Shown here: positions 45,498-53,209 of the stretch, piece after piece | Layout of the letters: each line of letters opens with the position of its first letter | How positions within the stretch are numbered: the first letter of the stretch is position 1 | Source of the DNA: Erysipelothrix sp. | GTDB taxonomy: Bacteria; Bacillota_I; Bacilli_A; Erysipelotrichales; Erysipelotrichaceae | DNA: 56,232 bases | Direction of reading: 5' to 3' | Assembly: GCA_012512595.1 (NCBI GenBank) | Contig: JAAZDW010000022.1 | Location: forward strand, 1-56,232 | Position numbers and translations under genes: made by a program | Notes under the pieces: model-generated | Told to the model about the DNA's origin: nothing | Databases searched by the model: none | Seen by the model: the letters and a program-made list of their open reading frames with translations, nothing else

Positions 45498-46463
45498 ATG
45501 ATAAAAATAGGAATTGTAGGTTATGGAAATTTAGGCAAAGGTGTCGAGTTGGCAATTGCTAAGCAGCCAGACATGGAAGTATTTGGTGTTTTTACAAAAA
45601 GAAATAAAGAAAATGTTCAAACCCAAGGTAGTATTGTTTATCATTATGATGAATTGCTAGACTACAAGGAACAGATTGATGTCTTAGTTTTATGTGGTAG
45701 TTCAGAGCGAGACTTACGATTACAATCACCAGAGTTGGCTAAAAACTTTAACTTAGTTGATAGTTTTGATATGCATGCGATAATTTTAGATCACGTAAAT
45801 ACAGTTGACAAAGTAGCTTTGACAAATAATACGACTGCTATTGTATCAGCTGGTTGGGATCCTGGAATTTTTAGTTTGCAAAAAACAATTATGGACGCCA
45901 TTCTAACTGATGGTGAAACCTTAAGTTTTTGGGGACCAGGTATTAGTCAAGGTCACAGTGATGTAGCTGGTCGAGTTGAAGGTGTGAAAATGGCTAGAAA
46001 CTATTCAATACCTAATGAAGATAACCTTAAAAAGTTTAAAAAAGGAAAATCGATTGACGCTAAAAACAACCATCACAAAATTTGTTATGTAGTTGTTGAA
46101 GATGATAATGAACGCAATCGCATAGAAAAAGAAATTAAAAACATTCCACATTACTTTAAAGGTAGCAGTACAACAGTTAAGTTTATTTCAAAGGAAGAAA
46201 TGGAAAAAGATCACTCTAATTGGCCTCAAGGTGGTAGAATTATTAGAACTGCGAAAACTTCAGATGACAATAATCATATAATCGAATTTACGGTAAATTT
46301 AGATTCTAATCCAGAATTTACTTCAAGTGTAATGGTTGCCTATGCTCGTGCGACTTATAAGATGCACCAGCGAAAAGAATATGGTGCCTTTACCGCATTA
46401 GATGTAAGAGGTCAAGACTTGTCTAATAAGTCTCGAGAGCAGTTAATCAAAGAAATGTTATAA
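45498..46463 (+). CDS. ddh: meso-diaminopimelate D-dehydrogenase
   Basis: NADPH-dependent one-step synthesis of meso-diaminopimelate from tetrahydrodipicolinate, providing the peptidoglycan cross-linking residue and lysine precursor. 321 residues with the N-terminal GIVGYGNLGKGVELA, DSFDMHAII, SAGWDPGIFSL, FWGPGISQGHSDVAGRVEGV and C-terminal ALDVRGQDLS motifs, all diagnostic. The start follows AGAGAAAGAGAG. No other lysine genes are nearby and no lysine riboswitch is visible. Its presence implies a DAP- or lysine-containing cell wall. Single gene. Confidence 0.94.
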   Translation: MIKIGIVGYGNLGKGVELAIAKQPDMEVFGVFTKRNKENVQTQGSIVYHYDELLDYKEQIDVLVLCGSSERDLRLQSPELAKNFNLVDSFDMHAIILDHVNTVDKVALTNNTTAIVSAGWDPGIFSLQKTIMDAILTDGETLSFWGPGISQGHSDVAGRVEGVKMARNYSIPNEDNLKKFKKGKSIDAKNNHHKICYVVVEDDNERNRIEKEIKNIPHYFKGSSTTVKFISKEEMEKDHSNWPQGGRIIRTAKTSDDNNHIIEFTVNLDSNPEFTSSVMVAYARATYKMHQRKEYGAFTALDVRGQDLSNKSREQLIKEML

Positions 46464-48864: not shown

Positions 48865-49509
48865 ATGATAAAATCTAAAATCGAAAAACCAAAAGTGTCA
48901 CAAGTAATAAACAAGGGGTCATTTCTTGATTTATCTGAGAAAGAGGATTTTAATCTAAGCAACTGCTTGATATCGGATACAATTATTAATACCGAAATCT
49001 TTCATCGTATAACATTGACAAAAATAATATTTAAGAATGTTATATTTAAGGCAATTAATTTTGAGAATATTGAACTTAATGATGTTGTATTTGAAAATTG
49101 TGACTTGTCTAATATCAATTTTGCAGAAGCTAGTTTATTTAGAGTTGAGTTTAGAAATTCAAAGTTATTAGGTATTGACCTTTCTAGTTCAAGTCTTATA
49201 AATGTAACGTTTGACAACTGTGTTTTAAACCTTAGCTCATTTGGTTATAGTAAGTTAAAAAAAGTTGCTTTTGATAACTGTGCCCTTTTAAAGGCGGATT
49301 ATTATGAGTGTATCTTTAATAATGTAAGATTTTTTAAATGCGATTTAGATGAGGTGAATTTTTCTGGGACACCTCTTAAAGAAATTGACCTTACTACTTC
49401 TAGGTTTGAAAAACTCTGGGTATCATTGGCCGATCTGCAGGGATGTATAGTATCAAATAACCAAGCTATCGGTTTTGCAAAATTATTAGGTTTAACAGTT
49501 AAAAACTAA
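48865..49509 (+). CDS. Pentapeptide repeat protein
   Basis: 214 residues made largely of five-residue repeats with a central Leu/Phe/Ile (for example FENCDLSNINFAEASLFRVE), forming a right-handed quadrilateral beta-helix over about residues 25-195. A small-residue/Cys-rich face (NCDL, NCVL, NCAL) recurs. Such proteins can mimic DNA and protect gyrase (Qnr/MfpA), but many have no known role, and nothing here indicates gyrase binding. The start follows AAAGGAGC. Single gene with no obvious partner. Confidence 0.9.
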   Translation: MIKSKIEKPKVSQVINKGSFLDLSEKEDFNLSNCLISDTIINTEIFHRITLTKIIFKNVIFKAINFENIELNDVVFENCDLSNINFAEASLFRVEFRNSKLLGIDLSSSSLINVTFDNCVLNLSSFGYSKLKKVAFDNCALLKADYYECIFNNVRFFKCDLDEVNFSGTPLKEIDLTTSRFEKLWVSLADLQGCIVSNNQAIGFAKLLGLTVKN

Positions 49510-49764: not shown

Positions 49765-51132
49765 ATGATGTCAATAAGGTTTTACTTAGCAATGTTTATT
49801 TCTAGAGCCTCATTCTACATATTAAAAATATTTGGAAAAAATGCCAGCCATTTCCCAGGAGTTGTGGCACAAAAGATTTGCCCAGATGTCTTAAAATATT
49901 TAGAAGCACCGGAAATAATAGTTGCGGTCACGGGTACAAATGGCAAAACAACTACAACTAATATGATAGTTGATTTTTTAGCTTATAAAAAAGTAGATTT
50001 CGTCAGTAATACTTCCGGAAGTAATATTGAAGGTGGTATTATTAGTTCCCTTTTAAGGTCAACTAGCTTTTTTGGTAAAAACAAAAAAGATTTAGCTGTT
50101 TTCGAAGTCGATGAAAGGGCCTCTGTCCATATCTTTCCTTACAAAAAGCCAGATATTCTACTTGTGACAAATCTTGGAAGTGACTCCTATAAAAGAAATG
50201 CTCATGTGGAGTATATTTTTAGTATATTAGAATCAAGTATTCCTAAAACATCGCATTTATTATTAAATGCAGATGATGTTATATCAAGTAATTTATGTAA
50301 AAATAATCGGCGTAGTTACTTTTCTATTGCGCCACAAATTTTTGAAGAACAAATTACTGATAGTATTATCCAAGATGCACCTTACTGTCCAATATGTAAC
50401 GGTGTTTTGACTTACAAGTTTAAACGATACCATCATATTGGAAATGCAAATTGTGAAACATGTGGATATAAACTTCCAAAAATTGATTATGAAATTACAG
50501 AAATAAATGATACAGAATTTAAAATCGTGGAAAACAACACAATTTATTCTTACAAAAATAAAACCGGAAATATTACCGATAATTATAATAAACTAGCTGC
50601 CATTTCCACCTTAAGACAACTTGGCTATCAACACAGTGAAATTAAAGCAAGCTTTGATGAAGATGTTTTTAAAGTGACAGAAACTCGCTATGATATATCC
50701 CTTATAAATGGTAAAAACATTATTAGTATTTTAGCCAAAGGTCAAAATCCGGTCGCAAACTCAAGAGTTTTTGATTTCATTAGAAAACAGCCAGATTGGG
50801 GCAGTATCACCCTAGTTTTTATGAACGAAGAATCAAATCACAGCTATCATATTAATGAAGTTGAAAATACTAGTTGGCAGTATGAAACTGATTTTGAATA
50901 CCTAGACCATCCAAACATTAAAAAAATATACTGCATGGGTAATAGAAATTTAGAGGTCAAGACCAGATTAGTATTAGCAGGTATAGATGAATCCATTATT
51001 AGTCTGCTTGATCCATCTCCAATACTTGATATAGAATTTACTACGGATAGTGTAATTTTGCTTCATGATACGACAAACTTGGACCAAGTAAAAGTTTTTA
51101 GAAAAACTCTAGAAGCGGAGGCTGCTAAATGA
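49765..51132 (+). CDS. murT: Lipid II isoglutaminyl synthase subunit MurT
   Basis: Mur-ligase-like subunit that activates the D-Glu carboxylate of lipid II for amidation. 455 residues: an N-terminal segment, ATP-binding TGTNGKTTTTN (56-66), a four-cysteine zinc ribbon (Cys208/Cys211 and Cys230/Cys233, CPIC and CETC) typical of MurT, and the C-terminal DUF1727 domain (ILAKGQNPVANSRVFDFI). In the region where staphylococcal and pneumococcal MurT have the Asp of the shared glutaminase triad (SWIWD), this protein has SWQYE (Glu374). It overlaps gatD by 4 bases (ATGA). The start is ATG ATG after AAGGGG. Confidence 0.9.
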   Translation: MMSIRFYLAMFISRASFYILKIFGKNASHFPGVVAQKICPDVLKYLEAPEIIVAVTGTNGKTTTTNMIVDFLAYKKVDFVSNTSGSNIEGGIISSLLRSTSFFGKNKKDLAVFEVDERASVHIFPYKKPDILLVTNLGSDSYKRNAHVEYIFSILESSIPKTSHLLLNADDVISSNLCKNNRRSYFSIAPQIFEEQITDSIIQDAPYCPICNGVLTYKFKRYHHIGNANCETCGYKLPKIDYEITEINDTEFKIVENNTIYSYKNKTGNITDNYNKLAAISTLRQLGYQHSEIKASFDEDVFKVTETRYDISLINGKNIISILAKGQNPVANSRVFDFIRKQPDWGSITLVFMNEESNHSYHINEVENTSWQYETDFEYLDHPNIKKIYCMGNRNLEVKTRLVLAGIDESIISLLDPSPILDIEFTTDSVILLHDTTNLDQVKVFRKTLEAEAAK

Positions 51133-51821
51133 AAATAGAAATACTTTTTCCAGAGCTGTGTTCCTTATTTGGTGACAAAGGTAATATTTTAATTCTGGAG
51201 AAAACCTTTGGAAAAGCCAATGTAATTAAGACATCAATTTTACAACAACCAGTATTTTTAAATGGTGAAATCGACCTTGTTTATCTAGGATCAATGAGTG
51301 AAAACTCTCAACTGTTAGTTCTAAAGAAACTACTTCCTCATCGTAAACAGTTCAAAAAGCTTATTGATGCTGGAATGAAAGCATTGTTTACGGGTAATGC
51401 TATGGATATTTTAGGAAAGACAATAATTGAAGAAAATGGGAAAGCTATAAAAGGCATGGATTTTTTTAACTTTGAAACGATAATAAAAAGAAACCCTCGT
51501 TTGAATTGCGTTGTCTATGGTTTTTATGGAGAGATTCCAATGGTTGGTAATAAAACTCAGTTTACCCAAAGTTATCCTATAAATCATGACAATTATTTTT
51601 TCAAGGTTAAAAGAGGTATGGGTATAAATAAAAAATCAATGTTAGAAGGCTTTAAATATAAAGGCCTTGTCGCGACCAATATGACTGGCCCTTTATTAGT
51701 ATTTAATCCAGGCTTTGCAAATGATTTTTTAGGGGTCAAATTGCCTTACCAAGAACTTTTGGAAAAAATGCAGCTACAGAGAATCAATGATATTAAAAGG
51801 GTTAAATCAGTATTCTACTAA
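51129..51821 (+). CDS. gatD: GatD-like amidotransferase with substituted catalytic residues
   Basis: 230-residue protein in the position of GatD, the glutaminase that feeds ammonia to MurT. N-terminal ILFPELCSLFGDKGNILIL matches GatD. But where GatD has the nucleophile in ICGGxQLLG, this protein reads FTGNAMDILG (Gly89 for Cys), and the catalytic His of FHGPIL is replaced in MTGPLL (Thr186). The conserved ENHxGRT segment is also absent. It is intact, without frameshift, and coupled to murT by ATGA. It may be a structural partner using free ammonia, or MurT here may do something else. Glutaminase activity is not expected. Confidence 0.82.
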   Translation: MKIEILFPELCSLFGDKGNILILEKTFGKANVIKTSILQQPVFLNGEIDLVYLGSMSENSQLLVLKKLLPHRKQFKKLIDAGMKALFTGNAMDILGKTIIEENGKAIKGMDFFNFETIIKRNPRLNCVVYGFYGEIPMVGNKTQFTQSYPINHDNYFFKVKRGMGINKKSMLEGFKYKGLVATNMTGPLLVFNPGFANDFLGVKLPYQELLEKMQLQRINDIKRVKSVFY

Positions 51822-52093: not shown

Positions 52094-53209
52094 ATGACAA
52101 AGTTAAAAAGCAATCAAATATTTCTGATATACATAATAATTTTTGCTTTGGCAGCCTTAATATTTAAGACTGTCATCATTAATGCTGAAGAAGTAGTATC
52201 AGTAAGCAAAGAAAAACCAATGAAAGTTGTAAAAGTTGAAATAAATAATAATCCTAATTTTAAAGATGTAATAAAATCTGTTTTAAGTAAGGACTTGAAA
52301 TATATTATACATCCCAAGGCACTAGAAAAAGATGTTTCATTAAGTGAAATTGTTGCGAGTGACATTGATTACTCAAGTTATGAAGTTCAAGAAGTTGTGG
52401 TCGAAGTTCAAAGATATACTGATTCGAAAACAGGTAAAATAAAGATCGATTCAGTCCAAAAGCTTGTAAAATTGCAATTTATTGACTTAACACCACCTGA
52501 GATTACGCTTAAAAAAGCAAGTGTCACGATTACTGAAGGTGAAGACTTAGATGTAAATGAATATCTAGAAAGCGTAACTGACAACAGCTTTGAAGCAGTC
52601 TTAGTTGATGTTGAAGATGATGTCGATACAAACTCACCAGGAACATATACAGCTGTGTTTAGTGCAACTGATAGTTCGAAAAATACTGCTAGTAAGACAC
52701 TAACTGTTATAGTTAAAGAAAAACCAAAACCAGTCATTATCCCTGTACAGGTTCTTTCTCAAACAAAAACTGTAGTTGATACATCGAGTTTCTCAAGTGG
52801 GGTTCAATATAGTCCAAGTCGAGTTACTAGATATGGATTTGATTGTCGAGGTTGTAATATCAACTCAGAGGGCTATTCAAGTACTGCAGGCGGCATAAAG
52901 GTCGCTGGTGACAGTGTTAGACAGCCTAATGGAGAATGGCACTCAGGCTATACATATGACGGGTATTATATTGTGGCGACATCTAGAGATATTCCATTGT
53001 TTAGCATCTTAAAGATTAGTAACCATCCATTTGCAGGTGGCGGTATTAGTGCCGGAGAACCATTTTATGCAATTGTTGGTGACCGTGGCGTTAGTGGAAC
53101 TGCTTTAGACTTATTTATTGGAACAGAAAGAAATTTAAATGTTATTAGCCAAAGAGGAAATCCAAATTCATCTAATACAGTAGTTGAAATTGTTAGATCA
53201 GGAAGATAG
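52094..53209 (+). CDS. Secreted 3D-domain cell wall protein with Ig-like domain
   Basis: 371 residues. A signal or anchor segment (about 10-30) is followed by a helical region, an Ig/cadherin-like domain (about 130-215: DLTPPEITL ... SPGTYTAVFSATDSSKN), a linker with KPKP, and a C-terminal 3D domain (about 250-370) with the three-aspartate barrel pattern: GDSVRQ, VATSRDIPLFS, AIVGDRGVSGTALDLFIG. 3D domains occur in peptidoglycan lytic transglycosylases and Rpf/Sps-type proteins. CRGC provides a possible disulphide. The start is set by AAGGAGG. It follows murT-gatD, so it may act on the cell wall. No sortase motif. Confidence 0.85.
   Translation: MTKLKSNQIFLIYIIIFALAALIFKTVIINAEEVVSVSKEKPMKVVKVEINNNPNFKDVIKSVLSKDLKYIIHPKALEKDVSLSEIVASDIDYSSYEVQEVVVEVQRYTDSKTGKIKIDSVQKLVKLQFIDLTPPEITLKKASVTITEGEDLDVNEYLESVTDNSFEAVLVDVEDDVDTNSPGTYTAVFSATDSSKNTASKTLTVIVKEKPKPVIIPVQVLSQTKTVVDTSSFSSGVQYSPSRVTRYGFDCRGCNINSEGYSSTAGGIKVAGDSVRQPNGEWHSGYTYDGYYIVATSRDIPLFSILKISNHPFAGGGISAGEPFYAIVGDRGVSGTALDLFIGTERNLNVISQRGNPNSSNTVVEIVRSGR

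Follow-up and report, generated by a model that had tools for sequence, protein, structure and literature searches.

What does a glutaminase subunit do for its partner ligase once the residues of the glutaminase itself have gone? The question is raised by a gene pair in a stretch of 56,232 nucleotides from Erysipelothrix sp. (contig JAAZDW010000022.1), which is referred to here as the window. The first gene, murT (49765-51132, forward strand), encodes a MurT-like Mur ligase of 455 amino acids, and the second, which we call gatD' (51129-51821, forward strand), encodes a 230-residue pseudo-glutaminase of the GatD fold. The original prediction held that all three positions of the glutaminase triad had changed, that the genes were nonetheless intact, overlapping and coupled, and that selection rather than decay was at work. 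Three outcomes were offered without ranking: the use of free ammonia, lipid II left unamidated, or some other modification.

The genes are intact, as had been described. Translation of 51129-51821 gives an open reading frame of 230 amino acids with no internal stop, and the stop of murT overlaps the start of gatD' in the tetranucleotide ATGA (51129-51132, forward strand). The motif GGAGG, read directly at 51117-51121 on the same strand and likely to be the ribosome-binding site of gatD', lies within murT, 7 bases 5' of the ATG, and translational coupling is likely. GatD' matches the NCBIfam GatD family (E-value 1.8e-16) and the solved structures 5n9m and 6gs2 (phmmer, about 3e-12), and a sequence search gives the S. 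aureus and streptococcal complexes as the closest solved structures to the pair as a whole. The AlphaFold2 model of GatD' has a mean pLDDT of 91.3 and aligns with S. aureus GatD (6h5e_A) over 222 residues, with a Z score of 26.0 and an rmsd of 2.4; no fold closer than GatD is listed for the model in the fold comparison. The scores of the protein on the models NF045636 and NF052463 are 58.7 and 60.7 bits, against equivalog cut-offs of 400 and 450, and among 39 members of its type none is matched by any further NCBIfam model.

Alignment with S. aureus GatD places G89 at the nucleophile C94 and T186 at the catalytic H189, which confirms both of the substitutions that had been read. The nucleophile elbow carries T88-G89-N90 (51390-51398, forward strand) in place of I-C-G, a motif that gives the name TGN to pairs of this type, and T186 is encoded at 51684-51686 on the forward strand. 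The glycines of the oxyanion hole have also gone, as the GGG strand reads G54-S55-M56 and the glycine that follows the cysteine is N90. R124 (51498-51500, forward strand), the equivalent of the glutamine-capturing R128 of S. aureus, is retained. Model and alignment together show that GatD' has the GatD fold without the residues of a Cys-His glutaminase.

The ligase partner has fared differently from the glutaminase. Window MurT contains a Mur ligase middle domain (Pfam Mur_ligase_M, 4.7e-10), a MurT C-terminal domain (MurT_C, 1.2e-13) and a Cys4 zinc ribbon, and matches the structure 6gs2_B at 3e-42; its match to the NCBIfam MurT model (5.6e-54, 183.7 bits) lies under the equivalog cut-off of 800. 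It has the P-loop GTNGKT (57-62), the acidic residues E114, D116 and E117, the zinc ribbon cysteines C208, C211, C230 and C233, and both R308 and K325, so that its ligase motifs are, on the evidence of the sequence, mostly intact. Outside the ATP site the motifs of MurT in pairs of this type are shifted in comparison with canonical MurT, with DQLDR becoming DSxxR, E147 becoming H and NPxGxN becoming NxxAxS, and the window protein has an extra change of its own, FRD to GSD at 138-140. The third member of the triad is disputed, being assigned either to D349 of MurT (PMC6113224) or to Asp32/Asp19 of GatD (PMC6085368). E374 of window MurT (50884-50886, forward strand) does align with S. aureus D349, at the SWxxD position, but the claim that all three triad positions have changed goes too far. 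The MurT residue is Asp in 93 of 100 TGN pairs (Glu in 5 and Ser in 2), and Asp16 is present in GatD' and is Asp or Glu in 96 of the 100; the replacement at 374 is, from the alignment, a conservative and minor variant.

How far this state extends was followed by comparing the window protein with 60 relatives and then by profile searches. This turned up further genera in which GatD shares the TGN motif and lacks the His, as well as genomes whose GatD is canonical, of the form CGG...HGP. Within the same family, profile searches find the type in about 50 of 195 genomes, some with up to three copies, and TGN-type pairs are also found in a second family of the class. A profile search of GTDB species genomes gave 270 matching stretches, the best 80 of which were kept. 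The 100 TGN pairs used for residue counts come from Erysipelotrichaceae-like genomes and many clostridial ones, and named members include Mogibacterium timidum, Mobilibacterium timonense, [Eubacterium] infirmum, Baileyella intestinalis, Alterileibacterium massiliense and Sporobacter termitidis. The nearest relative of the window pair, with 66% identity, is from another genus of the family. In a tree of 58 concatenated MurT and GatD pairs, all 35 TGN pairs form one clade, and the 35 TGN, 16 canonical and 7 pairs of a second Cys-less group are each separated from the rest by a single branch, with support of 100, 100 and 97, respectively. No paper describing the TGN clade was found in the open-licence literature, the papers found there dealing only with canonical pairs or with archaeal MurT-like ligases that have no GatD, although an earlier description elsewhere is possible.

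Residues were counted in the 100 TGN pairs, 23 canonical pairs and the 7 pairs of the second Cys-less group. The nucleophile position is Gly in every TGN pair and in all 7 of the second group, and Cys in 23/23 canonical pairs. The His position is His in none of the TGN pairs, where it is always Ile, Leu, Thr or Val, and His in 23/23 canonical pairs, whereas the P-loop, E114, D116, E117, R308, K325 and the four zinc cysteines of MurT are 99-100% kept among the TGN pairs. The alignments thus show a Cys-less, His-less state fixed across an old clade in which the catalytic residues of MurT are preserved, and this combination points to an old, selected pseudo-glutaminase subfamily that is wider than a single gene. 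Sequencing error as the cause of the Cys and His loss was rejected because the changes are fixed across the clade. A substitute nucleophile at Cys11 or Cys127, the finding that was to have overturned the original prediction, is also unlikely: Cys11 is present in 57 of the 100 pairs (Ala in 31), Cys127 in 6, and neither has a conserved His partner.

It might still be argued that the amidotransferase has lost its function and is decaying. Presence within the genus is indeed patchy, as neither MurT nor GatD has a match in two other genomes of the genus of the window, whose own genome is 66% complete, and the pair is to this extent dispensable there; a few relatives, moreover, have an in-frame stop. 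Specific replacements fixed in 100 pairs, intact reading frames and invariant catalytic residues in MurT refute decay for the clade, and we regard it as very improbable. Selection, as had been proposed, is strongly supported. As the catalytic motifs of MurT are intact, an inactive complex that leaves lipid II unamidated is the least likely of the three outcomes first offered.

Several other variants of GatD were seen in these searches. The second Cys-less and His-less group (L022, L057, L088, L107 and L054-L056) has its own MurT, in which SWLWD is kept, groups in the tree as the sister of the canonical pairs, and co-occurs with a TGN pair in some genomes. In L252 (G576:C41:24854-25504), a canonical-looking GatD that retains the His, the elbow reads CIGGGYQ, which may mean that the Cys was lost or shifted independently; the genome has a second, canonical copy. 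L128 (G423:C2:216653-217336) is a divergent GatD that has kept CGG and HGP and lost the oxyanion GGG (FGTNITG), and there is a canonical pair elsewhere in its genome. Stop codons, in-frame or near-terminal, occur in the GatD' relatives L082 (G035:C45), L057 (G004:C8) and one at G441:C15.

The former glutamine pocket of the TGN proteins has acquired a conserved set of residues of its own, whose placement in the pocket comes from alignment with the solved GatD structures. N90, directly after the nucleophile position, is Asn in 99 of the 100 pairs; positions 55 and 56 no longer carry the oxyanion glycines; residue 58 is Glu in 99 (Asp in canonical pairs); position 93 is Glu or Asp in all 100 (Gln in canonical pairs); and N126 is found in 95. 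Positions 142-145 are mostly K-S-Q-F where canonical proteins have E-N-H-G, with K142 in 95, Q144 in 95 and F145 in 96. R124 is kept in 96 of the TGN pairs and in 23/23 canonical ones, and the corresponding R128A variant of S. aureus GatD is inactive (PMC5871853). Loss of the glutaminase together with a new conserved set at the same pocket argues for a changed function rather than decay. In some genomes there are two or three Cys-less pairs, with 25-43% identity to one another and different residues at pocket positions, and two genomes of a single genus have second copies with the same altered pocket. One way to read a remodelled pocket in which the Arg is retained and the catalytic pair has gone is that GatD' has become a sensor, binding glutamine or another amino acid and regulating MurT while the nitrogen donor comes from elsewhere. 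Such an arrangement needs a separate donor and has no known example in the family, and we think it improbable.

The genomic setting bears on the substrate. Genes for MurC, MurF and a MurJ-like flippase are found among the neighbours of TGN pairs. At 17 of 80 named loci, compared with 0 of 20 canonical loci, murT has an ATP-grasp ligase (PF14397) immediately upstream, a count that is weakened by relatedness among the loci; 4 of 20 other regions also have this ligase beside the pair. Cys-less pairs are present in about 52 of the 195 family genomes and pairs that score as canonical in about 68, with no genome in both sets. The classes are score-based, with residues read from the sequence for several dozen loci, and the genomes are related, so that the count does not amount to a statistical test. 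It could be held that the pair modifies a different envelope carboxyl from the D-Glu of lipid II, such as that of the third stem-peptide residue or of a non-murein polymer, since gene neighbourhoods vary and MurT, away from its ATP site, departs from the canonical motifs (DSxxR, H at E147, NxxAxS). The recurrence of MurJ-like, MurC and MurF neighbours and the replacement of canonical pairs point instead to the same substrate, and a change of carboxyl seems to us a poor prospect.

The main rival to our own reading concerns the donor. MurT could make D-isoglutamine lipid II from free NH3, with GatD' as a required scaffold and nothing more, as in CPS1, and the pair would then be an ammonia-dependent amidotransferase. 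The rumen and the gut are rich in ammonia, and by their record titles many members of the clade come from rumen or gut samples. Ammonia would also account for the replacement of canonical pairs. In S. aureus, where MurT alone is inactive, MurT with GatD C94G, which bears the same change as GatD', does not use Gln but retains unaffected NH3-dependent amidation of lipid II at pH 8.5 (PMC3266927). A dead GatD can therefore support MurT, and a new nucleophile is not required. The C94G enzyme is, however, inactive with NH3 at pH 7.5 (PMC3266927), and ammonia explains neither the 95-100% conservation of the new pocket residues, with the retention of R124, nor the presence in one genome of two or three diverged pairs with different pockets. 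We rate this explanation as rather unlikely, although it is well ahead of the sensor and the different carboxyl.

The explanation that we favour, with a probability a little short of even, is that the pair consists of a MurT ligase and a conserved pseudo-glutaminase, in which a lipid II carboxyl is activated and then attacked by a GatD'-bound amino acid or amine. MurT would still use ATP to activate the carboxyl, most likely the alpha-carboxyl of D-Glu, a substrate suggested by the replacement of canonical and Cys-less pairs by each other between genomes and by the murein-gene neighbours. GatD' would serve as a scaffold and, less surely, its former glutamine pocket would be the putative site for another nitrogen nucleophile. 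In place of glutamine-derived ammonia, an amino acid or a small amine would then most likely attack the acyl-phosphate, and the product would be D-Glu bearing the amino acid or amine in place of isoglutamine. Such a nucleophile is favoured over ammonia by the strong constraint on pocket residues, including R124, that ammonia would not need, by the occurrence of two or three divergent pairs in one genome, as copies that all used ammonia would be redundant, and by the ATP-grasp ligase upstream of murT. R124 and the new residues could instead serve subunit contact or stability. Among the three outcomes first offered, another modification thus fits best.

Substituents on the D-Glu alpha-carboxyl and bridges of group B are known from wall chemistry, and we know of no enzyme identified as placing residues other than NH2 at this position. 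An amino acid on the alpha-carboxyl would match both. A bolder proposal, which we hold with less confidence than the general one, is that the ATP-dependent ligases missing from this picture are the Cys-less pairs, which would couple amino acids or amines to lipid II at the alpha-carboxyl of D-Glu, as substituents or bridges of the group B type, with the former glutaminase pocket as the donor site and multiple pairs in a genome dealing with different donors or successive additions.

A strict link of the pair to a group B wall or to loss of MurE was considered and is unsupported, as most genomes that bear the pair have MurE. No named species with a group B wall was matched to the clade, and the open-licence literature yielded nothing usable on group B enzymes and wall types. 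The MurE motif varies, being DDPR in the genome of the window, DNPR in Sporobacter and HDNR in others; in Sporobacter the pair occurs alongside a MurE whose motif, DNPR, is that of the DAP type, so that the pair is not tied in any simple way to a single type of peptidoglycan. Where MurE has no match the genome is incomplete, as in G464, G520 and G017 (completeness 93, 89 and 91%), two of which have three Cys-less GatD pairs. Within the window, a diaminopimelate dehydrogenase (45498-46463; TIGR01921, E 5.9e-105) is encoded a few kb upstream of the pair, in the genome whose MurE carries DDPR, and a pentapeptide-repeat protein with weak Qnr/MfpA-like scores (48865-49509) just upstream of murT. 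Downstream of gatD' is an Ig-like surface protein (52094-53209), the C-terminal region of which resembles by eye a cell-wall domain of the 3D type; no Pfam model confirms this resemblance.

In Gram-positive bacteria, amidation of D-Glu governs both cross-linking and susceptibility to antibiotics. The existence of a widespread clade that has kept the ligase and discarded glutamine chemistry predicts a differently modified wall precursor in many gut and oral anaerobes, and suggests that bacteria with a TGN pair attach something else to the precursor. The clade offers a concrete gene pair with which this modification can be tested. It also carries a warning for annotation: TGN genes score as relatives of GatD and should not be called glutamine-dependent amidotransferases.

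The closest known system is the MurT/GatD lipid II isoglutaminyl synthase of S. aureus, S. pneumoniae and S. pyogenes, with which the TGN pairs share gene order and overlap, folds, the P-loop, acidic and Lys residues and zinc ribbon of MurT, the equivalent of GatD Arg128 and the GP motif after the His position. They differ from it in the absence of the catalytic Cys, the His and the oxyanion glycines and in their new conserved pocket residues, at about 20-30% identity. Human CPS1, which is ammonia-dependent and retains a glutaminase-like domain, is among the fold matches of the GatD' model; here too a class I glutaminase domain has been kept after loss of the nucleophile, but the synthetase and its product are unrelated. 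The archaeal MurT-like ligases (PMC11915815) likewise represent a MurT branch that works without a glutaminase, but they lack GatD altogether and form a separate clade in archaea that make pseudomurein. The engineered S. aureus GatD C94G has the same change from Cys to Gly at the nucleophile as GatD', yet it is a laboratory mutant in which His189 and the rest of the pocket are kept, and the one donor shown for it is ammonia, at pH 8.5.
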